From an uncultured Candidatus Melainabacteria bacterium (lineage in GTDB: Bacteria; Cyanobacteriota; Vampirovibrionia; Gastranaerophilales; Gastranaerophilaceae), in NCBI GenBank assembly GCA_934757275.1, contig CAKVLN010000002.1, forward strand, positions 186,001-250,000: a stretch of DNA of 64,000 nucleotides, read 5' to 3'. The notes beneath the pieces were generated by a model, which saw only the letters and a program-made list of their open reading frames with translations, made no database searches and was not told the DNA's origin. Numbering within the stretch: position 1 is the stretch's first letter; each line of letters begins with the position of its first letter. The translations under genes and the position numbers were made by a program. Below, piece after piece: positions 4,729 to 55,113 of the stretch.

Positions 4729-7700
4729 TTAAGATAAGATATCGTTCAAGTCACCTAGAATGCCTTCGTGATTTTTACCACAATTACATTTGCATTCTAC
4801 CTTACCTGTAACATCTACCGTTACCTTGTGGTCTTTTATCGCATTTTTGATTTCATCAAGTTTTGCTAAGATTTTATCAAGTTTTGCTAACAACTTAGAA
4901 TCATCGCCCTTATTACCAGTCTTACTAGCAATTACATTCAAGATATTCATAATGTTAGTGTATCTATTATCGTTCTTGCCAACTTCTTTTTGTAGAGCTT
5001 CTAAGATTGATTTTGTAGTTGCATTAAGGACATCTGTTTTTCCATTGATGCTAGATAAGATATTACCATTTTTCTTAGACTGTGCAAGAAGTTCTGACAC
5101 CATTTTTTCTAAGCTTGACAAGTTTACTGTACCACCATTTGTAATCTTAATATTACCAATTGCTTCAAGAATTGCCTTAGTATTTTTACCTTGATTGTCA
5201 ACAACTTTTTCCAATAAGCTACGAAGTGAATCTGCACCGGCAACACCTTTATTAATTGCTTCAAGGACAGCTGTAAAGTTTCTATTCATTTCAAATCCTA
5301 AAGCATTTAATGTATTTAAAATATCATTGCCTAATTGTTTGCCATCTTTTCCATTTTGTTTAACTTGAGTATTTAATTGAGCAATTAATACTTTGATATC
5401 ATTAAGGTTAACGTTACCTTTATTTACCGCATCAAGCAATTTAGAGAAATTACCATTCATTTCAAAACCAACGGCCGCAATATAGTTAAGAATTTCATCA
5501 CCAAGTTTTTTGCCATTTTCACCATTTTTAACAACATTAGCGTTTATTTTTTCTAATAATGCTATAACGCTATCAATTTTAACGTTACCTTTATTTACTG
5601 CATCAATCAATTTAGAGAAATTACCATTCATCTCAAAACCAACGGCTGCTATGTAGTTAAGAATTTCATCACCAAGTTTTTTGCCATTTTCACCATTCTT
5701 AACAACATTAGCGTTTATTTTTTCTAATAATGCAGTAATGTTATCTAATTTAACGTTACCGTTATTTACCGCATCAAGCAATTTAGAGAAGTTACCATTC
5801 ATTTCAAATCCAACGGCTGCGATGTAGTTAAGAATTTCATCACCGAGTTTCTTACCATTTTCACCATTCTTAACAACATTAGCGTTAATCTTTTGTAATA
5901 GAGCAGTAATATCATCTAATTTAACATTGCCATTATTTACCGCATCAATCAATTTAGAGAAGTTACCATTCATTTCAAATCCAACGGCTGCGATGTAGTT
6001 AAGGATTTCTTTACCCATTGCATCACCCTTAGAGCCGAGTTTTTCAACTAATGTGTACAATTTTTGCAACAAAGCGTTTGTTTCATCAGCCTTAGTATTG
6101 TTTTTCTTAGTTTCTTCTAGAATTTTTTCTAAGTAACCATTAACTTTAGCATCATTTTTAAAGTGAGTTTTTAAATCACCTGCAATACCATCAAGAGTCA
6201 ATTTCATTTCAGCCAATAATTTCAACATTGCTGCAAGTTTTTCACCATCTGACTTGTTAGAATTTTCGATTTCTGTAAGCTTATTCAAGATATTAACTTG
6301 AGTATCACCGTTTGCAACAGTTTTCTTCAACAATTCTTCAATAAGACCCTTCATTTCACTCATTGTCTTATTACCAGTTTTAATACCGTTAATAATTTCG
6401 TTCAACTGTGAAGTGTATTGAGGGAAGGCTTTAACTAATTCAGTCAAAGTATCTACGCTGCCTTTAATATCAACTAAAGCATTCATAATATTTTCTGTGC
6501 CTGAATTGATACTATTCTTAACTTCTGCTAACAAATTATTGTTTTCAGTCATTGCCTCAAGAATTTTTGAGAGCATCTTAGCATTTCCGCCGCAAAGGTC
6601 GAGAATTTCTTTTGCAGTAGCACCGTTTTCAATTTCACGTTCCAGAATTTTTTGCAGAATTGCGTTAGTTACTTCTTGACCTTGTAACAAGGCATCAATT
6701 GCGTCTTCCAAGCTACTGTTTTGAGTAATTGTAATATTTACATTTTGGTTAATTTCAGTTTTGCCACCCAAATCATCGCCAGAACAACTTGTCAAGCCCA
6801 TTGCCATAAATACTGCGGCTGCTCTTTGTGCAACCTTAGAAGTTACGGCAGCTACACCAGCTTCAGCAGCTGCATAAGCTAGACCAGCGATACCAACAAC
6901 TAAAAGAGCAACTTTAGCTTCTTCTGGAAGGTCGATTAAACCTAGGCCACCAAATACATTACCCATAAATTTATCCAATTCAGAAGCATCTTTTTGCGCG
7001 CCTTCAACATCGCCAGCTTCCGCTTTTTCCATTGCAGAAGTAGCTAATTCCATGGCTTTCTTTTTATCTTCTGGTGACAATTTAGCATAAGCATTTTTTA
7101 CTGCATCTTCTGCTTTATTAGCTTGCGGTTTGTCCAAAGCAAATTGTGCATAAACATCGTCCATAGTTTTCACTGCAGTTCCATTTTCAACACCATTTGC
7201 AGCTACGCTATTTCCACCAGCAACACCATTTGCGCCACCAGCTTTAGCAACATTAGGATTATTAGCTACAACTACAACCTCATCAAGTGAGCCTGCGTCG
7301 TAGTCTTTTCCACCTGCAGCTTCTTTATTGCCTCTACGCCAGAAGTTTGCAAAAGTATCAAACCAACTGCCTTTGTTGTCTGAATTTTGAACAATTGTAA
7401 GTTTTGGAGCATCTGGTTCTACAACAATATTGATTTGACCGTCATTAGCAACAGAAAGAGTTCTAATATTAAACTCTTTTTTCAAGTCATCTACTGTAAT
7501 TTGTTCACCATTTTTGTCGTATACTCTTGCAGAAGCACCTTTTTCACCGTTTACCGCAACGGCAACAATTGTGTACTCTCTTGTGCCAAGTTTAACTTTT
7601 GCGTGTGAGAGTTCTTGTTTTGCAACGTGATTACTGATTTCCAATTTATCTTCAGGAGCACCACCGCCATTAGGGTTCATTGCTTCTGAAAGATATCTTG

Positions 7701-7809
7701 AAAGTTCTTTGTAATCAACGCCAAACTTCGCAGCACTTTCTGAAACGGTTGCACCGTTTTTAATACAATAATCTACTGCCTTTTGAAAATTAACACCATT
7801 TGTAGTCAT
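4729..7809 (-). CDS. 1026-aa protein with tandem 57-aa repeats, sigma-28 controlled
   Basis: This is a large protein of unrecognised family. Residues 5-45 look like a small helix-turn-helix (GATVSESAAKFGVDYKELS). A hydrophobic stretch lies near residues 295-325, followed near residue 340 by MGLTSC, which resembles a lipobox but sits too far inside to be a lipoprotein signal. Residues 350-600 are helical and probably coiled coil. Residues 600-840 hold four near-identical 57-residue units (consensus NYIAAVGFEMNGNFSKL then NANVVKNGENGKKLGDEI) and a fifth diverged unit. The C-terminus carries a CKCNC cluster. AAAGGAG precedes the ATG, and a sigma-28 promoter lies about 50 bp upstream. It has no Sec signal. 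An exported, fibrous or cell-surface-contacting protein is plausible but unproven. Confidence 0.85.
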   Translation of the reverse strand: MTTNGVNFQKAVDYCIKNGATVSESAAKFGVDYKELSRYLSEAMNPNGGGAPEDKLEISNHVAKQELSHAKVKLGTREYTIVAVAVNGEKGASARVYDKNGEQITVDDLKKEFNIRTLSVANDGQINIVVEPDAPKLTIVQNSDNKGSWFDTFANFWRRGNKEAAGGKDYDAGSLDEVVVVANNPNVAKAGGANGVAGGNSVAANGVENGTAVKTMDDVYAQFALDKPQANKAEDAVKNAYAKLSPEDKKKAMELATSAMEKAEAGDVEGAQKDASELDKFMGNVFGGLGLIDLPEEAKVALLVVGIAGLAYAAAEAGVAAVTSKVAQRAAAVFMAMGLTSCSGDDLGGKTEINQNVNITITQNSSLEDAIDALLQGQEVTNAILQKILEREIENGATAKEILDLCGGNAKMLSKILEAMTENNNLLAEVKNSINSGTENIMNALVDIKGSVDTLTELVKAFPQYTSQLNEIINGIKTGNKTMSEMKGLIEELLKKTVANGDTQVNILNKLTEIENSNKSDGEKLAAMLKLLAEMKLTLDGIAGDLKTHFKNDAKVNGYLEKILEETKKNNTKADETNALLQKLYTLVEKLGSKGDAMGKEILNYIAAVGFEMNGNFSKLIDAVNNGNVKLDDITALLQKINANVVKNGENGKKLGDEILNYIAAVGFEMNGNFSKLLDAVNNGNVKLDNITALLEKINANVVKNGENGKKLGDEILNYIAAVGFEMNGNFSKLIDAVNKGNVKIDSVIALLEKINANVVKNGENGKKLGDEILNYIAAVGFEMNGNFSKLLDAVNKGNVNLNDIKVLIAQLNTQVKQNGKDGKQLGNDILNTLNALGFEMNRNFTAVLEAINKGVAGADSLRSLLEKVVDNQGKNTKAILEAIGNIKITNGGTVNLSSLEKMVSELLAQSKKNGNILSSINGKTDVLNATTKSILEALQKEVGKNDNRYTNIMNILNVIASKTGNKGDDSKLLAKLDKILAKLDEIKNAIKDHKVTVDVTGKVECKCNCGKNHEGILGDLNDILS
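5290..6020 (-). repeat. 171-bp tandem repeats inside the 1026-aa gene
   Basis: Four units of exactly 171 bp (57 codons), followed by one diverged unit, are visible as the recurring stretch TTAGAGAAATTACCATTCAT (for example ending at 5460 and 5631). The near identity at the DNA level suggests recent duplication or ongoing homogenisation. Confidence 0.85.
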
Positions 7810-7860: not shown

Positions 7861-7887
7861 ATATCGGCACATTTTTTAAAAACTTTA
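7861..7887 (-). promoter_or_regulatory. Sigma-28 (FliA) promoter
   Basis: On the minus strand this reads TAAAGTTT, 11 bp, GCCGATAT, matching 15 of 16 consensus positions. The transcript should start near 7854, about 45 nt before the ATG at 7809. Confidence 0.9.
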
Positions 7888-31183: not shown

Positions 31184-31210
31184 TAAAGTTATTGAAAATT
31201 ATGTCGTTAT
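31184..31210 (+). promoter_or_regulatory. Sigma-28-like promoter of the metalloprotease gene
   Basis: TAAAGTTA, exactly 11 bp, GTCGTTAT. This matches the consensus at 12 to 13 of 16 positions with the same spacer as the four better sites. Transcription would start near 31217, 24 nt before the ATG. Confidence 0.55.
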
Positions 31211-31240: not shown

Positions 31241-33259
31241 ATGGATTATTCATACAATAACTACAATAATGAAGAAATTAAATTAAATTTAAAAATTGGT
31301 GACAATTGGGATAATTTGAATATTCAAAATAAATATCTTAATACTATTTTTTCTAAAATTGATGATGGCGATAGAAAGATTTCAGCAGATGAACTTTCAT
31401 TATTAGAAAGATTGCTAGAAAAAAGTAATAATCTAATTAGAACGCTTTCGACTTTTGGAACAACAAAAAGCGAAAACAAAGATTATAGTGTTTTAAAAGA
31501 TGAAAATTTAAAAGTTGTTGTTGAACAAATCGAAAATGGGAAAATTGAAATACCTAAAAAAAGACAACTTACACAAAGTGGCTACATTGAGATGCAATAT
31601 AGTTCAAAAGAATACAATGAAATAAAAAAAGATTCTAAAAGTTTTTATGAAAATCAAATAAATAAGATTAAAGCACAACTGGCACAAAAATATTCAAGCG
31701 ATTATGAAATAAATGTTTCTCAATATCAAAATGGTTATAAGTATGAAATTTTTGATTTAGACGTAAATAGAATAAAAAACAGCCAAAATAAATCATTTTC
31801 TCAATCTTTTACAAAAATCAGAAATGATGGTATAAGTCTTGAAATAACTGATTATTATGAAAATGAGATTACTGATAATGAAACGGCAGATTATAGCAAA
31901 AATCATCAGGAGGCAAATTTTGGTGAAATTGTAATAACAGATAAAAAAGGTAAAGAACATAAAATCAGTTATCACTTAGACGACTGTTCCGAAAAAGACG
32001 CTTTAGATTGTAGACGTGTAAGAGATAAAGCACTGAATTTACTAAGCAAATTACCATCAGAAACAATTGAAAAATTGCTGAAAAACGGAGTTGAAGATAT
32101 CTACTTTTCTGCAGAATACGAAAATCCGCTTTTAGCAGATCCTGATTATTATAAAAATAAAATGGATAAAAATGGAAATGTAATTGATATCTCATACGGT
32201 TCCGCAACAATTATTTCGCCAGAATTAAAATTAAAAGAACGTAATTATCAAACCGAGCGAAGCGTAAAAAGAAATGACAATATAAAAGTTGATATTGCTG
32301 ACACTGAAAAAAATAGCGCAGAAATGAAGATTACTTCAAAAAATGGCAATACTTTTTCAGTTAATATTATAGGCTCTTCTGGCGACATAGAAGGAGATAA
32401 ATTTCATCAATGGCAATTACCAAGATTAGAAAAATTGATGAGTGAATTACCACCATCTGTTTTGGAAGATTTAGAAAACGAAATTACCGATGTCAAATTT
32501 TTACAAGAAAATATTGGTGGGACTTCTGCAGGACTTTACTCTCCTGGAACAAATACAATAGCTTTTAAAGCTGATTATGACAACGATACTCCAACTATCT
32601 CATTTGTGCATGAATTAGGTCATGCTATTGATGATCAAAACGGCACCTTCTTATCTTCTAAACCAGAGTTTGCACAAAAATTTGAAAACTTTCAAAAATT
32701 ATTTACTAAAAAATTTCCAAATATAGATAATCACGCCTGCGATAACGCACAAGAATTTTTTGCATCTACTTATGCTTATCTAGAATTGCCTAATGATAAG
32801 AGAAATAATCATATCGGCGATTTAGAGACACTTATTGATAATTTTAAAAATTCTAGCAACAATGAAGAGCAAGAATTGTATAAGTTATTCACTGAATTAA
32901 AACAAGAAGTTCGCAACAATGTAAATATAGTTAGAAACAAACCAAAAGAACAAAGAGCGGATAATTCATTAACCCAATTAGTAAAAAATGAATGCTCTGA
33001 TTTAATCAATAAATTCAACAAGTATGGTAGATATATGGAAGAAAATTTCGATTCTCAATCAGTGCAAATTGATTTAACCAGAGCACTAGCAGATAGTGAT
33101 AAGGTTTTTGAGGTTTATATAAAAGAATGGACTGAATTTGTAGAAGACAAAAGAACTACTGCATGGGGAGCACATATTCCAACTCCGTCTGAAATTCAAG
33201 AACTCTATTCAGAATTGATACAAAAAGCGCAAGAATTAAGGACAAAAGTAAGAAATTAA
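31241..33259 (+). CDS. Lethal-factor-like zinc metalloprotease
   Basis: A 672-residue protein without signal peptide or membrane helix. The protease region has SFVHELGHAIDD (His457, Glu458, His461) and then AQEFFAS, where Glu505 fits as third zinc ligand, as in gluzincins. The HELGHAID sequence and its following AxEFFA helix resemble the anthrax lethal factor and related bacterial toxin proteases. A degenerate EF-hand-like loop sits at residues 40-51. The middle (about 60-430) has no family I know. GTGGGG lies just before the ATG. A sigma-28-like promoter precedes it. I infer an exported or effector-type protease; the substrate is unknown. Confidence 0.7.
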   Translation: MDYSYNNYNNEEIKLNLKIGDNWDNLNIQNKYLNTIFSKIDDGDRKISADELSLLERLLEKSNNLIRTLSTFGTTKSENKDYSVLKDENLKVVVEQIENGKIEIPKKRQLTQSGYIEMQYSSKEYNEIKKDSKSFYENQINKIKAQLAQKYSSDYEINVSQYQNGYKYEIFDLDVNRIKNSQNKSFSQSFTKIRNDGISLEITDYYENEITDNETADYSKNHQEANFGEIVITDKKGKEHKISYHLDDCSEKDALDCRRVRDKALNLLSKLPSETIEKLLKNGVEDIYFSAEYENPLLADPDYYKNKMDKNGNVIDISYGSATIISPELKLKERNYQTERSVKRNDNIKVDIADTEKNSAEMKITSKNGNTFSVNIIGSSGDIEGDKFHQWQLPRLEKLMSELPPSVLEDLENEITDVKFLQENIGGTSAGLYSPGTNTIAFKADYDNDTPTISFVHELGHAIDDQNGTFLSSKPEFAQKFENFQKLFTKKFPNIDNHACDNAQEFFASTYAYLELPNDKRNNHIGDLETLIDNFKNSSNNEEQELYKLFTELKQEVRNNVNIVRNKPKEQRADNSLTQLVKNECSDLINKFNKYGRYMEENFDSQSVQIDLTRALADSDKVFEVYIKEWTEFVEDKRTTAWGAHIPTPSEIQELYSELIQKAQELRTKVRN

Positions 33260-37603: not shown

Positions 37604-38035
37604 CTAAATATCTTCTAAATCTTTTGCAAGGCTCTCTGCAGTTTCATTGATTTCCGTTAAAAGTTTTGTATCTTGCAGCTTTTGCATAAGTTCTTCCTTT
37701 GTACCAGTTGCAACAATACATTCAGCCTTGTATGGGCTTGGCAAACGATAGGCCACCACTTCAAGATTTCTGATTTTTTCATTAGCTTCAACAGATTTAG
37801 GTGGTTTTGAAATTTTTAGCATAAAATCAGTTGCAGACAATTCTTTTTTAGTATTTGCGAATTGTTCATACACAGGTGCAAAATCGCCATATTCAGGAAC
37901 TTCTCGTTCAGCTCTATCACGAAGAACTTTAACAAACTTCTTAAATGTTTCCTCCATATTTTTTACCTCTTTTTGTGGAATTTTTGCGCCTTTAAAATTA
38001 GCCTTATTATGTTGTATTGGATTAATTTTGTTCAT
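37604..38035 (-). CDS. Hypothetical protein next to the RelA/SpoT-domain gene
   Basis: A 143-residue protein with no recognised family. The N-terminus contains ANFKGAKI, like NISFRAS and NISYKA in two other accessory proteins here. The rest is alpha/beta, acidic at the C-terminus (ETAESLAKDLEDI). It lies 39 bp downstream of the alarmone-synthetase-domain gene on the same strand. That position would suit an immunity or accessory protein, but sequence does not prove it. Confidence 0.65.
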   Translation of the reverse strand: MNKINPIQHNKANFKGAKIPQKEVKNMEETFKKFVKVLRDRAEREVPEYGDFAPVYEQFANTKKELSATDFMLKISKPPKSVEANEKIRNLEVVAYRLPSPYKAECIVATGTKEELMQKLQDTKLLTEINETAESLAKDLEDI

Positions 38036-38074: not shown

Positions 38075-40249
38075 TTAATTGTTATCAATTTTATTATTAT
38101 AACTTTGTATTGCACTTTTCGCATTTTCAGGTTCGTTTTTAATTATTTCTGCAGTTTCATGCAAAGTTATTAAGTTCTTTGCCTTCAATCGTTCATCGAA
38201 TTTAAAGCCTTTACCATAATCTTCCAATCTTGGTTCAACACTTTCAAAGCCCAATTCAAGCTTCCTTAGGTGGTTATAATAGTCACCCAAATAGCGATTG
38301 TACTCTTTGTATGTGTCTTTAGACATATTTTTTTCAGACAATAATTTCTTTATCGGATTGTAAAGAGGTTCTAACTCCTTATGTTTGCCGATAATATCTT
38401 TACCAGTTCTCAAATCGTACGGAACATGTTCACCTTCTGCAAACTCGTTAACTCTATCACCTCGGAATTGCCATTCAATAATCTTTCCTTCTTTTGTCAT
38501 AAAATTAGCCTGCAAAGCAGTATAACCAGATGGTTGAGATTTCGTCGTTGGTTTATAATTAGCATCAACTTTAGAGAAATTAGGGTCGCTTTCATTAATT
38601 CTCAAATTGATTTTAAGTTTTACACCATGATTTATCGCAAATTGTTTCAATTCTGCAAGTTGATTTTCTGAAAAATATGGAATACCGTTTTTAGCAACGT
38701 AGTTACTAATTCTAGCAATTGTAAACTTGTTTCCGTTTTGTTCTTGTTTCAAAATTTCAGCTTTCAAAGCATCAACCGCTGGTTTAGATTGAATTTCAGC
38801 AGCCTTTAAAATAGCCTCTTGTTCTCGACCAGCCTCAAGCAAAGCTTTGACTTCTGGATTAGATTTAAAATCACCAGATTTAACAACTGTTCTTGCTCCA
38901 ATCGCATCTCTAACATCTTTTATAGCATCTTCTAGACTAGCACCTTTATGCTCCTTCATATAATTTGAAATTTTATCGTACAAGCTTTGTTCGCCTTTCA
39001 AGCGAATAGACATATTGCCAATATCATCAAGTCCCATTGCTTTTAAATCTGATTTAATTTGTTCAAAAGACTTGCTATAATCAGCTCTAATCTCTTCTAC
39101 TGCGCCTTTGATTTCTGCGATTTTAGCGTTTTTAATACCAGTTTTAACAGACTTAGCTGCCCCACCGAGCATAATAGAACCCATACCAATTTCGCTACCA
39201 GCTAAACGAGCGTCTTCTTCTGTTTCAGCAGTTTGCGCATGCGCTAAACCTGCACCAATCAATTGACCGCCTTCAACGCCAAAATAGCTTTGTGTTGCTA
39301 CGGCAAAATATTTCCCGACATTTGCAACAGATGCAGCTTTACTAGCAGCTCCTAGTGCGCCAACCATTTCTAAACCTTCTGCGCTTAAAAAGCCATCAAC
39401 GGCATCGCCTAAACCTTTAGTGATGTTCCACGCCGTTTCTAACTTGCTCAAGTTGTTTTCATCACCGTCATCTACTAGATTGTCGACGTAATCAACAAGC
39501 GCATTCAAACCGCTATATTTCTTGATGGCGTCTTTAGTTGCAGTTACACCAACTTCGTCATCAATATGCTTACACATATATGAATTAAATTCTGACAAGG
39601 CGTTTTTCATACCAGAAAAATCTTTTTTCGCAGCTGCGTCTTGAAATTTGTCCATAATGAATTTTTTCCTATCATCATGTGATAGCATTTCAACATTTTG
39701 TTGCTCAATTTCTTTTGTTAATTGGCTTGCAGTTTTATTTTTATCAGCCTCTGAAATTTGAAGAGAATCGACATGTGCTTTAAATTTTTGTTCTTCTGCG
39801 GTCTTTTTAGGGTTCATCAATCTTTGGTTTTTGATATGGTTATTGATTTCCGCAGCTTTTTTCTTACGTTCAGCGACAGTTTCATTCAACTTCATTTGAT
39901 GCCCAGAAATCGCATTTTGTTTTTCAACAGGGTTCTTTTGTCCAAAGCTAGTCATACTGTCCAAATAAGACTCTTGCCCTCCGCCATATCCTGCAAAACC
40001 AAAAACGCTACCTTGTCTAAGCGCAGTTTTTTGAGCTTGTGTCATAGATTGGGCGTCAAAACCTTCTCTTGTATTAAGCCAATTTGCGTACTCATTCTTT
40101 TGAAGTTGCCCTTTTTGAAGCATAAGTTGAGCAATATCAAACTTAGTCATCTTGCGACCAGTTTTTGCTTCTTCGTTTTTCAATGCTTTCAAATTAGCTT
40201 GTGCATAAGCATCGATTTTTTGTGAAATAGATGTTCCCACTTTAAACAA
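38075..40249 (-). CDS. Large protein with C-terminal RelA/SpoT-like alarmone synthetase domain, sigma-28 controlled
   Basis: A protein of about 724 residues. Numbering from an upstream TTG at 40261, residues 1-250 are polar and helical, a Gly/Ala-rich hydrophobic segment covers about 295-345, and residues 415-620 form a (p)ppGpp-synthetase-type domain. Arg420, Lys422, Ser426 and Lys430 (RLKGEQSLYDK), Asp452 and Arg457 (DAIGAR), Tyr580 (SGYTALQ), Glu596 and Arg600 (EWQFR), and Glu611-His612 are all at the expected motifs. There is no Sec signal. The start is uncertain: TTG 40249 and GTG 40240 follow GGAAAGG at 3 and 12 nt. A sigma-28 promoter lies upstream. It is probably an effector or toxin that makes alarmones. 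Confidence 0.75.
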   Translation of the reverse strand: MFKVGTSISQKIDAYAQANLKALKNEEAKTGRKMTKFDIAQLMLQKGQLQKNEYANWLNTREGFDAQSMTQAQKTALRQGSVFGFAGYGGGQESYLDSMTSFGQKNPVEKQNAISGHQMKLNETVAERKKKAAEINNHIKNQRLMNPKKTAEEQKFKAHVDSLQISEADKNKTASQLTKEIEQQNVEMLSHDDRKKFIMDKFQDAAAKKDFSGMKNALSEFNSYMCKHIDDEVGVTATKDAIKKYSGLNALVDYVDNLVDDGDENNLSKLETAWNITKGLGDAVDGFLSAEGLEMVGALGAASKAASVANVGKYFAVATQSYFGVEGGQLIGAGLAHAQTAETEEDARLAGSEIGMGSIMLGGAAKSVKTGIKNAKIAEIKGAVEEIRADYSKSFEQIKSDLKAMGLDDIGNMSIRLKGEQSLYDKISNYMKEHKGASLEDAIKDVRDAIGARTVVKSGDFKSNPEVKALLEAGREQEAILKAAEIQSKPAVDALKAEILKQEQNGNKFTIARISNYVAKNGIPYFSENQLAELKQFAINHGVKLKINLRINESDPNFSKVDANYKPTTKSQPSGYTALQANFMTKEGKIIEWQFRGDRVNEFAEGEHVPYDLRTGKDIIGKHKELEPLYNPIKKLLSEKNMSKDTYKEYNRYLGDYYNHLRKLELGFESVEPRLEDYGKGFKFDERLKAKNLITLHETAEIIKNEPENAKSAIQSYNNKIDNN

Positions 40250-40287
40250 GTACCTTTCCAATACTCAACTTTATCTTACAAATACTT

Positions 40288-40314
40288 ATATCGGCATTTT
40301 TTGAAAAAACTTGA
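40288..40314 (-). promoter_or_regulatory. Sigma-28 (FliA) promoter
   Basis: On the minus strand TCAAGTTT, 11 bp, GCCGATAT: 14 of 16 consensus positions. Transcription should begin near 40281. It lies between the divergent recF and the alarmone-domain gene. Confidence 0.85.
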
Positions 40315-42528: not shown

Positions 42529-43386
42529 TTATAGTAAATTCAATGCTATACTTGGGGTTTGGTTTGCAGTTGCTAATAATGTTGCTGAAGCTTGTTGAAG
42601 AATTTGAGCCTTGATATAATTTGAAGATTCTTCTGCCACATCAGCATCTCTTAGAGTTGACAATGAAGATGTAATGTTTTCAGATTGAACACTAATTGAT
42701 TCAACTGCTGATTCAATTCTGTTTTGTGCAGCACCTAATGTTGTTACACGGCCAGAAATGTTATTGATAACTTCGTCAATTTTATCAAGCATTGTACTAG
42801 CTGCAGTACCTTTTTCCAAACCAGCACATTTTTTTGCAACATCTGCTTTTGCTTCTCCAAATAAAGTATTAATATCTGCTTTTGCAAATAAACTCTTATC
42901 TAATACAATTTTACTGTCATCGTTACTATATAGACCAACTTGAAGATTAATATCATTTTTCATAGAACCGTCCATCATCTTCAAACCGTTAAATTCACAG
43001 TTTGCAGCAATACGGTCTACTTCATCAAGTCTTGCTGTAATTTCAGATTGAATTGCTTGTAACGATTCTGAACCATAAGTACCATTAGCCGCTTGTTCTG
43101 TTAAATCTCTCACACGTTGTAAATGAGATGAAACTAGAGAGTAGGTGTCCTCTAGAGTTGTCATCATATCTGCCCCTGTTGCTGCGTTGTCAGCTGCAAC
43201 ATCTAATGAACCTAATTGAGTTTCCCAATTTCTTGCGATTGAATAACCTGCAGCGTTGTCTGATGCGTGGTTAATCTTGTAACCAGTTGTCATTCTCTCA
43301 ATTGCGTTGTTCAAAGACGAAGTTGCTTTGCTCAAATTTGATTGAACAATCATTGATGATAGGTTTGTGTTAATTGTTAGTGCCAT
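42529..43386 (-). CDS. fliC: Flagellin
   Basis: A 285-residue flagellar filament subunit. Residues 1-140 form the conserved N-terminal D0/D1 helices (MALTINTNLSSM, MTTGYKINHASDNAAGYSIA). The C-terminal D0/D1 helices end in SATLLATANQTPSIALNLL. The variable D2/D3 domains are almost absent, so the filament surface is simple. AAAGGAG lies 6 nt before the ATG. No sigma-28 promoter is visible. The leader has a hairpin with AAGGA in its loop. Flagellin is exported by the flagellar type III system. Confidence 0.97.
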   Translation of the reverse strand: MALTINTNLSSMIVQSNLSKATSSLNNAIERMTTGYKINHASDNAAGYSIARNWETQLGSLDVAADNAATGADMMTTLEDTYSLVSSHLQRVRDLTEQAANGTYGSESLQAIQSEITARLDEVDRIAANCEFNGLKMMDGSMKNDINLQVGLYSNDDSKIVLDKSLFAKADINTLFGEAKADVAKKCAGLEKGTAASTMLDKIDEVINNISGRVTTLGAAQNRIESAVESISVQSENITSSLSTLRDADVAEESSNYIKAQILQQASATLLATANQTPSIALNLL

Positions 43387-53533: not shown

Positions 53534-55057
53534 TTATACTTCCTTATCTTTGTCCTTGTCATTTGGCGTAGTTCCAGTTGCGCCACCTGTGGTTGTTCCG
53601 CCAACAACAACTCCGCCATTGTTAGCTGGGTCGAGTTTACTATCCCCTGGAGTGTAATTTTGTGCAAGAACACCTTCTGACTCTTCGCTTAAACCTGCGA
53701 CAACATCATCTGGGTTTTCCATACCTTCTGGAATCTCTAACTCAAGTCCCTCTACGCCCTCCATTTGTCCAGCGTAGATATCAATATTTTCATCATAAAT
53801 GCCAGTTGTAGTTGCGTTCAGATCTTGAGTATCTTTTCTTGCGTTAATTTCATTGCCGACTTCACCTGCCCATTGGAACTGTTGAGTAGCACCAACACCA
53901 CTCATTGCTGCACCTGCAGCTCCCATTGCTGCAAATGCCCAAGCCCATGATGTAAATAGACCACCAGAAGATGCAAATTTACCAGCTTGGAGAGCGGCTT
54001 TAGCACCACTTGCAGCATTTAATGTTTGTGCTCCTGCTTCAACATAGCACATTGTTCTCGTTGCATCATCAAAGCTTGCTGCATAATCGGTTACACCTTC
54101 AACTTCTGCCATTGTTGATGCGGCATTATCATAGCCCTCTTGATAAGTACCCATTTCATCATAGATTTCGCCAACTGCTTCAGTAGTTTCGTCAGAAGTT
54201 TCACCAATGCCAATACCTAATTCTTGCATAAGTGGAATAAGTTCTTTTAACAAAGCTTTTTCATCTTCAGATAGAGGTTCACCTGATTTAGCTTTTTCCA
54301 TCAAAGCATCATAGCTTGCTTTGTACATATCAAATTCGGTTTTCTTATCTTCAATGTCACTATTAGCATCTTCATTATAAGCTTGGGCCTGATCAGACAA
54401 ATCTACAATTGCATCACCATATTCTGACATATCCTCTTGAGCAGAATATAAAGACGCTTGAGCATTCTGCATTGAATTTTGTAATTCATCACACGCTTCT
54501 TTTTGTTCTTTGTTAGGTTTCTTAGCTACATAAGCAGTACCAGTTGCTAATGCGAGAGGAGCAGCTACAATAAAGGTTGCACCTTGTTCTTTTTGCGCCA
54601 ATCCACCGTCACCTAATTTATTTACGGCATTTTGAGCAGCTTTTTCGCCAAATACACTTCCCATTGCATTTGCCGCATTTCCAGTAATAGCTTTACCCAG
54701 AATATTTACACCTAAGGAAGAGGCTGCACCGACACCAGCAGCAACACAATCAACAACACCTCTTGTAATCATGCCACCTTTACCGCCATCGTACCCTGTG
54801 TCATTTTTTACGGCGTTTTTACCATTATTCTTTGCAGTTGAAAAATCGTCGTCTTCAATTTCATAAGCATTTTCATCATTCGACGCAGTCGCACGCCAAT
54901 TTGCTAACTCACCGTTCCAAGTTTGAGTAAGCTCACCCATATCTTTGGCTGAAATCTTCATTGTATTTCCGCCATAGTTATAGTTGTACCAACACTTGTA
55001 GGCGTAAGCTTGTGAGGTTGTTGCTTGTGAAAGGTTAAATGAATCTTGTATAGCCAT
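53534..55057 (-). CDS. Large Ala/Gly-rich protein, sigma-28 controlled
   Basis: A 507-residue protein of unknown family, no Sec signal. It has hydrophobic, Gly/Ala-rich stretches at about 80-120, 160-180 and 350-395 (FTSWAWAFAAMGAAGAAMSG), with acidic coiled coil between them (about 190-320). The C-terminus is disordered (TTTGGATGTTPND). This layout of hydrophobic segments plus coiled coil recalls type III secretion translocators, but no motif is shared. I chose the ATG at 55057, which follows GGAGGA; an upstream start at 55096 overlaps the promoter and is rejected. Sigma-28 control is strong. Confidence 0.8.
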   Translation of the reverse strand: MAIQDSFNLSQATTSQAYAYKCWYNYNYGGNTMKISAKDMGELTQTWNGELANWRATASNDENAYEIEDDDFSTAKNNGKNAVKNDTGYDGGKGGMITRGVVDCVAAGVGAASSLGVNILGKAITGNAANAMGSVFGEKAAQNAVNKLGDGGLAQKEQGATFIVAAPLALATGTAYVAKKPNKEQKEACDELQNSMQNAQASLYSAQEDMSEYGDAIVDLSDQAQAYNEDANSDIEDKKTEFDMYKASYDALMEKAKSGEPLSEDEKALLKELIPLMQELGIGIGETSDETTEAVGEIYDEMGTYQEGYDNAASTMAEVEGVTDYAASFDDATRTMCYVEAGAQTLNAASGAKAALQAGKFASSGGLFTSWAWAFAAMGAAGAAMSGVGATQQFQWAGEVGNEINARKDTQDLNATTTGIYDENIDIYAGQMEGVEGLELEIPEGMENPDDVVAGLSEESEGVLAQNYTPGDSKLDPANNGGVVVGGTTTGGATGTTPNDKDKDKEV

Positions 55058-55086
55058 AGTTCCTCCAATAGGTATTCTTAATCTAC

Positions 55087-55113
55087 TTATCGGCATTTTT
55101 TTGAAAAACTTTA
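55087..55113 (-). promoter_or_regulatory. Sigma-28 (FliA) promoter, exact consensus
   Basis: On the minus strand TAAAGTTT, 11 bp, GCCGATAA: all 16 positions match the Escherichia coli-type consensus. It fixes the start of the downstream gene at 55057. Confidence 0.93.

Follow-up and report, generated by a model that had tools for sequence, protein, structure and literature searches.

A putative alarmone-synthetase toxin with a linked immunity gene candidate and a sigma-28-type promoter in Gastranaerophilales

We analyzed a stretch of 64,000 nucleotides from an uncultured Candidatus Melainabacteria bacterium of the order Gastranaerophilales (contig CAKVLN010000002.1, positions 186,001 to 250,000; hereafter the window, in whose own numbering all positions are given). 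Its subject here is a minus-strand gene for a putative polymorphic toxin that ends in a RelA/SpoT-type synthetase domain. The gene occupies a frame of 728 codons in the list of open reading frames (ORFs), 38075-40261(-), with three possible starts: TTG 40261, TTG 40249, and GTG 40240. P0001, the closest homologue with 89% identity over residues 8–728, begins at the residue equivalent to GTG 40240, so the start picked from homologues is probably the right one and the product probably has 721 amino acids (38075–40240, minus strand, 721 codons); TTG 40249, the start in the original prediction, is a possible alternative. Residue numbers below count from TTG 40261. The product begins with a conserved N-terminal module of about 378 residues (39107–40240, minus strand), delimited by homologue search and clustering, and ends with the synthetase domain and its C-terminal helices (residues 379–728; 38078–39127, minus strand), delimited by alignments, fold, and motifs. 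A 143-residue ORF (37604–38035, minus strand) starts 39 nucleotides past the stop codon, a sigma-28-type promoter-like site lies upstream of the gene, and a flagellin gene is found in the window at 42529-43386(-). Neither Pfam nor NCBIfam significantly matched the toxin-like protein, and the original prediction, made from the sequence alone, thus caught something beyond both libraries.

The catalytic motifs that define the SYNTH domain are R-x-K..S..K, DxxGxR, GY, ExQxR, and EH. The original prediction had recognized them in the C-terminal part, and each is in its place: R420-x-K422 with S426 and K430, D452-x-x-G455-x-R457, G579-Y580, E596-x-Q598-x-R600, and E611-H612. They are invariant or nearly so over 52 aligned rows, the window toxin counted in; one row is without the first part of the domain, and there conservation is 51 of 51, or 50 of 51 for G455. 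A second, domain-only set of 33 conserves them likewise, with G455 replaced by alanine in two members. Between DxxGxR and GY the window toxin has 122 residues, with family-specific conserved positions. A structure prediction had been proposed as a check, and the model of the C-terminal 350 residues (predicted local distance difference test (pLDDT) score of 91) has the RelA/SpoT-type synthetase, or SYNTH nucleotidyltransferase, fold, with FaRel2 and CapRel among its fold matches. In profile searches of the PDB, the domain-only profile A4 found 8vx3 (E 0.012) and the whole-homologue profile A1 gave noise only. A single-sequence search with the whole protein returned one PDB row, the MafB2 toxin, which we rejected as a relative at a chance-level E of 0.29. 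On the strength of the model, the synthetase-type assignment of this domain is close to certain. As for the product, (p)ppGpp, which the original prediction had named, is one of three that are compatible with the predicted fold, the others being (p)ppApp and pyrophosphorylated tRNA.

The N-terminal module is matched by no Pfam family, in keeping with the earlier remark that this part is unlike RelA/SpoT homologue proteins. It opens with a helical domain of about 70 residues (40031–40240, minus strand; alignment A3) with the pattern ISQKIDxY...TKYDIAxxML..G.L...W...EG, which we propose to be an export or trafficking module. With the whole protein as query, 84 homologues were found: one matched throughout, four matched by the C-terminal domain alone, and 79 matched by N-terminal sequence, nine of which also matched, more weakly, in the synthetase part. 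When 80 proteins (the query and 79 homologues) were clustered by their last 200 residues, 10 clusters formed, seven with several members and three singletons. Left out of this clustering were P0017–P0020 and P0050, in which a complete module is absent, and kept was P0072 (404 residues), whose match spans residues 11–189 only. Clustering by whole C-terminal parts had put 62 of the 80 into one group, which we put down to shared repeats, and was replaced. Residues 395–728 as query returned 52 proteins of up to 1,272 residues, nearly all with different N-termini. By these comparisons, the conserved N-terminal part with its diverse C-terminal domains is a polymorphic-toxin architecture, and it is from this architecture that we infer a toxin nature for the other C-termini. 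A divergent second synthetase-like C-terminus, about 33% identical over roughly residues 515–702, was also observed behind the module, in P0002, P0003, P0016, P0027, P0028, P0030–P0032, and P0055.

The helical domain has relatives in other genomes. Profile A3 aligned by hhalign with profile A6, made from the N-termini of 11 large synthetase-domain proteins of other genomes that were picked by eye, at a probability of 94.3% (E 1e-7, 49 columns), against 0.4% and 2.2% for the negative controls; both profiles are shallow, with 18 sequences in A3 and 11 in A6. A single N-terminal module sequence as query found matches at E ≤ 0.001 in 37 of the 286 Gastranaerophilales genomes searched, many of them covering the stretch 230–375 only. 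Profile A2 found nothing in six genomes because unrelated C-termini dilute it. The hydrophobic segment of the original prediction is there as a maximum near residue 297, but it is weak, with a 19-residue Kyte–Doolittle mean of 1.03; the usual threshold for a membrane span is higher. Windows starting within the first 80 residues reach at most 0.08, and so no Sec-type signal peptide is apparent. The 17 families listed for 49 scanned members included no WXG/LXG, MuF, DUF4157, or Rhs/PAAR part.

The ORF list, its homologues, and its linkage identify the 143-residue protein as an immunity-protein candidate. It has 131 homologues, 120 of them among the matches listed, and a member of its family stands behind the domain-containing ORF in 45 of 48 GTDB loci that encode relatives of the C-terminal domain, all of these loci from metagenome bins. 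In the three misses the domain ORF runs off the contig (L012) or 271 (L014) or 776 (L038) nucleotides are left. Across the 286 genomes, and with weak matches included in both counts, 182 have the synthetase domain and 144 the small gene. Downstream of a synthetase-domain match, on the same strand and within 6 kb, lie 133 of the 147 small-gene matches, at a median distance of 96 nucleotides (106 within 500 nucleotides); a random pair from the same genome would satisfy this linkage about 0.2% of the time. Counted from the other side, 133 of 150 domain matches among those listed have the small gene downstream. The small gene follows the synthetase domain irrespective of the N-terminal module, which argues for an immunity protein rather than an N-terminal chaperone, and we dropped a secretion chaperone as its identity for this reason. 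An immunity gene is thus the most likely candidate role, judging by linkage. PHROGs gave two chance-level matches only for this protein. The immunity proteins open with the motif INxxxxNxxNFxG (window 37962-38035(-) and homologues); short N-terminal stretches resembling it were seen by eye on other small ORFs.

The site upstream of the toxin gene, TCAAG-N14-GCCGATA (40289–40314, minus strand; motif scan), fits the sigma-28 (FliA) promoter consensus, TAAAG-N14/15-GCCGATAA, apart from the C at position 2. With the second base of the pattern widened to A/C on account of this site, the window contains four exact matches to T[A/C]AAG-N14-GCCGATA, the other three being TAAAG, against a shuffle mean of 0.03; none of 100 shuffles reached four. 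The sigma-28-type promoter of the original prediction is therefore borne out. Across the order, sites were scored on TAAAG-N14/15-GCCG[AT][AT]A with a threshold of 11 of 12. Of 37 synthetase-domain genes with 600 codons or more, 26 have an upstream site that reaches it, versus 3 of 371 other ORFs; the Fisher p of 3e-29 is overstated, since it treats related genes as independent, counts a single gene under two handles (L019 and L211), and uses a score that was loosened at two −10 positions once the data had been inspected. The threshold was reached by none of 61 immunity genes and none of six small domain genes. For genes that carry the A3 N-terminus, the scan was confined to CCGAT[AT]: five loci (L049, L054, L056, L057, and L058) have a site, L060 and L064 a weaker one, and L050, L051, L052, L055, and L067 none.

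Co-regulation of the toxin with the flagellum, which the original prediction had called plausible, is doubtful and was not supported in that form. A TAAAG-type site was found in just 3 of 17 flagellin upstream regions and not upstream of the window flagellin, and genomes that lack flagellin can nonetheless have the toxin family, a FliA-type sigma factor, and FlhA-type export genes. In the flagellated genome G184 the strict pattern has 36 matches, versus three for the reversed pattern. Among the 25 ORFs called behind these sites are EF-hand proteins, members of a repeated MGMAxSQARxLxLTAR family, two with the A3 domain, and several that encode long proteins lacking Pfam domains; about 10 sites yielded no downstream ORF under the rule applied. 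Taken with the flagellin count, this set suggests that the promoter marks effector-like genes, not flagellins. A FliA-type sigma factor scores above the TIGR02479 cut-off in all 15 related genomes chosen for closer study. Three loci have an FlhB gene followed by an ORF of 219–225 residues with FliA-like similarity (L156 5054-6713, L157 6756-8519, L162 5431-7197), sigma region 4 being confirmed for one, and this sigma factor could be the reader of the toxin promoters. The repeated family, with the fuller pattern MGMAxSQARxLxLTARxNxxExxGQQINQQR (L165 96-1163, L182 6006-6983, L192 103-1488, and also L120), stands behind sigma-28-type sites both in G184 and in G005, which is not flagellated, and is a candidate for a structural or secreted part of the export system.

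Every one of the 286 genomes has a match to the export-gene family PF00771 (FlhA/SctV), and the scores form two main classes. The flagellar FlhA class scores about 817–891 bits and occurs in 115 genomes by hand count; the other scores about 730 bits. At L079 the second-class FlhA lies below both NCBIfam cut-offs (FlhA, 706.7 of 772.1 bits; SctV, 588.9 of 692.25 bits) and stands in a gene row FliE-FliF-(unknown)-FliH-FlhA; the row at L081 is FliF-(unknown)-FliH-FlhA-FliI, and L080 appears to have the same order, judged from ORF sizes and starts only. The second FlhA-type gene stands in such a FliE/FliF-FliH-FlhA(-FliI) row in flagellin-less G002 and G005 as well. Among the 15 chosen genomes, flagellin is found in five, which have two FlhB genes each against one in the other 10, the rod-protein family PF00460 is found in 13, and the sheath gene VipB of the type VI secretion system (T6SS) in none. 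Of the 12 genomes that match A3 strongly, 9 have flagellar-class FlhA, versus 106 of 274 others, a weak association (Fisher p 0.016), and the remaining three (G014, G266, and G287) are without flagellin; in genomes with a close synthetase domain the flagellar class is, if anything, rarer (13 of 46, p 0.07). In G049, G125, G221, and G241 the best FHIPEP-like match reaches only E ~1e-44 to 1e-48.

The explanation that we favor, with moderate confidence in it as a whole, is that of a polymorphic alarmone synthetase or pyrophosphokinase toxin with its immunity protein, under FliA-type control and exported by a type III route. A FliA-type (sigma-28) holoenzyme would transcribe the toxin gene together with the 143-residue immunity gene. 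The helical N-terminal domain and the Ala/Gly-rich module of about 300 residues that follows it would be the trafficking part, reused with other payloads, and the toxin would leave the producer through a flagellar or flagellum-derived type III apparatus. In a recipient bacterium, the C-terminal pyrophosphokinase would transfer pyrophosphate from ATP without regulation, the acceptors being GTP/GDP, ATP/ADP, or tRNA 3′ ends, and growth would stop; the 143-residue protein would shield the producer and its kin. The parts of this explanation differ in strength. That toxin and immunity protein form a pair is very probable on the linkage and architecture above, and the toxin role that had been called plausible is strengthened by the module shuffling and by the immunity-type gene, which the original prediction did not include. 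Secretion, rather than a purely intracellular life, is likely. The route is the weakest step: given secretion, a flagellar or flagellum-derived type III apparatus is the likeliest exporter, by a modest preference, because no Sec signal is apparent and none of the 15 tested genomes has a T6SS sheath gene. The fold, the conserved active site, the module swapping, the linkage of the downstream gene, and the promoter motif are computed results; enzymatic activity, toxicity, immunity, product, export route, and target are what we infer from them.

Several observations weigh against this explanation, besides the related genes and the late relaxation of the score in the promoter comparison. Foldseek TM-scores to synthetases are low, 0.24–0.36 by query length in the nine best rows, in part because of the large insertion in the window domain. 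PF04607 is matched by 23 of the 33 domain-only family members (best E 1.3e-7), and the window protein itself is unmatched up to E 1 and its domain up to E 0.1. The model of the N-terminal module is poor overall (pLDDT 55), the first 70 residues or so reaching 76–91, and the A3 domain was found in just 13 of the 286 genomes, with a weak match in one. Pfam is uninformative for most of the partner C-termini, and the sole nuclease-type family, PIN_5, turned up in 2 of the 49 members scanned. The strict promoter pattern is not enriched in the non-flagellated genomes G002 (5 matches versus 4) and G005 (3 versus 2), where sites are degenerate. A type IV secretion system, finally, was proposed for the relative Vampirovibrio (PMC4451040).

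The alternative that survives best, although we consider it unlikely, is an intracellular toxSAS toxin–antitoxin or anti-phage module of the CapRel/FaRel kind, with the N-terminal module as sensor, the 143-residue protein as antitoxin, and no export. Known toxSAS enzymes of this fold, the matches FaRel2 and CapRel among them, are toxin–antitoxin or defence proteins, and export of the toxin is an indirect conclusion. Five inspected synthetase-domain proteins of about 440–500 residues are without the sigma-28-type site and this N-terminus, a further point against the explanation we favor, and part of the family may for that reason be intracellular. Against such a module, PADLOC gave only a chance-level match for the toxin (E 0.57) and none for the small protein, PHROGs has no family for the toxin, and phage and plasmid collections held no match to the domain at E ≤ 1e-3. 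The domain also occurs in open frames of up to 5,693 codons in the 286 genomes and in two of the 52 proteins with an ADP-ribosyltransferase-exotoxin match, the N-terminal module is found with seven multi-member clusters of C-termini, and the large genes, but not the immunity genes, have a FliA-type promoter.

Less probable still is a host-directed type III effector, similar to XopAD, that acts on an animal or on gut protists, with the 143-residue protein as producer-side inhibitor or chaperone. Gut or faecal samples are named for several of the loci, and the FlhA-type genes of all 286 genomes would serve such an effector as well; effectors with RelA/SpoT domains are described for the type III secretion systems (T3SS) of plant pathogens (PMC3482391, PMC12691689). 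A chaperone would be expected to track the N-terminal signal, whereas the small gene goes with the synthetase domain, and a specific immunity-type gene better fits a bacterial target. Alarmone signalling, moreover, is best known from bacteria and plastids. A non-toxic regulatory synthetase that links the stringent response to motility or secretion would agree with the fold and the FliA-type promoter, but the tight partner gene, the patchy distribution, and the attachment of the N-terminal module to unrelated C-termini misfit a housekeeping regulator, and we consider it highly improbable.

Exported alarmone synthetases and RelA/SpoT polymorphic toxins as such are already known (PMC12691689, PMC3482391). 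Alarmone-synthetase toxins have been described with T6SS, type VII secretion system (T7SS), MuF phage, T3SS (XopAD), and Sec export parts (PMC12691689), and RelA/SpoT-like toxin domains are listed in T7SS-, T3SS-, and MuF-linked proteins (PMC3482391). The window toxin resembles the polymorphic toxins of Zhang et al. 2012 (PMC3482391) in the shared N-terminal part, the variable C-terminal part, and the immunity gene downstream. In its proposed action it is like the exported alarmone synthetases (EAS; structure of SaEAS, 8vx3), for which Sec, WXG/LXG, XopAD, MuF, DUF4157, and Rhs/PAAR parts are listed (PMC12691689). It differs from them in an N-terminal module that has no Pfam family and contains no Sec, WXG/LXG, MuF, DUF4157, or Rhs/PAAR part, and in the 122 residues, with their family-specific positions, between DxxGxR and GY. 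The main text of PMC12691689 has no occurrence of "flagell" or "cyanobacteri". Tas1/Apk1 (6ox6) is a T6SS (p)ppApp synthetase effector with an immunity protein; the N-terminus of the window toxin is different, and the T6SS sheath gene is absent from the 15 tested genomes of its order. Unlike FaRel2 (8pu3) and CapRel (7ztb/9erv), the window family is multi-domain, with the module also on other C-termini, and the window gene has a sigma-28-type promoter and no convincing PADLOC match.

Flagellum-type export would be an unusual route for such toxins. The "needleless" T3SS* of Myxococcus with the Kil Tad pilus is a precedent for a type III-like basal complex tied to bacterial killing (PMC12075869); we liken the two by description alone, not by components or toxins. 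The nearest precedent found with a flagellar link is the flag-2 locus of Enterobacterales, a suggested carrier of toxin cargo (PMC6993521). Among the titles listed for the order and class, none ties a polymorphic toxin or type III weapon to Gastranaerophilales, and a search joining flagellar secretion, FliA, or sigma28 with toxins gave no such system, most subscription journals and bioRxiv lying outside its scope. As far as we have seen, the N-terminal domain is of a new type, and the regulation of FliA type, the immunity family linked to the domain, and the lineage are new as well: a putative alarmone-synthetase toxin stands behind a new N-terminal part and such a promoter in gut bacteria related to cyanobacteria. 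With this finding, two questions become accessible to tests: whether antibacterial toxins are delivered by flagellum-type export gates, and why partial flagellar gene sets persist in Gastranaerophilales that lack flagellin.

A broader and more tentative idea, which we hold to be possible but doubtful, is that the entire order retains a filament-less, flagellum-derived type III apparatus as an antibacterial weapon with a FliA-type toxin regulon. The apparatus would comprise the FliE-FliF-FliH-FlhA-FliI operon, FlhB with its adjoining FliA-like sigma factor, and rod proteins; the regulon, a large one, would consist of polymorphic toxins that have a short N-terminal export domain in common, the synthetase toxin with its immunity protein being one common payload. 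Flagellar genes in this group have been taken as motility genes, incomplete sets, or signs of genome reduction or loss (PMC3787301, PMC5877343, PMC4451040). If the idea is true, the reported "incomplete flagella" would be secretion machines and not decaying motility genes.

The other promoter-like sites of the window likewise stand before ORFs. Exact TAAAG-type sites on the minus strand lie upstream of a 1026-residue tandem-repeat protein (site 7862–7887; ORF 4729-7809(-)), of a 520-residue ORF whose likely start is a downstream ATG near 55057 (site 55088–55113; ORF 53534-55096(-)), and of an ORF cut off by the left edge of the window (site 1486–1511); the first two encode long proteins without assigned function. 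A weaker variant, TAAAG-N14-GTCGTTA (31184–31209, plus strand), precedes a 672-residue ORF, 31241-33259(+), which has a lethal-factor-type peptidase match (PF07737, E 1.5e-6).

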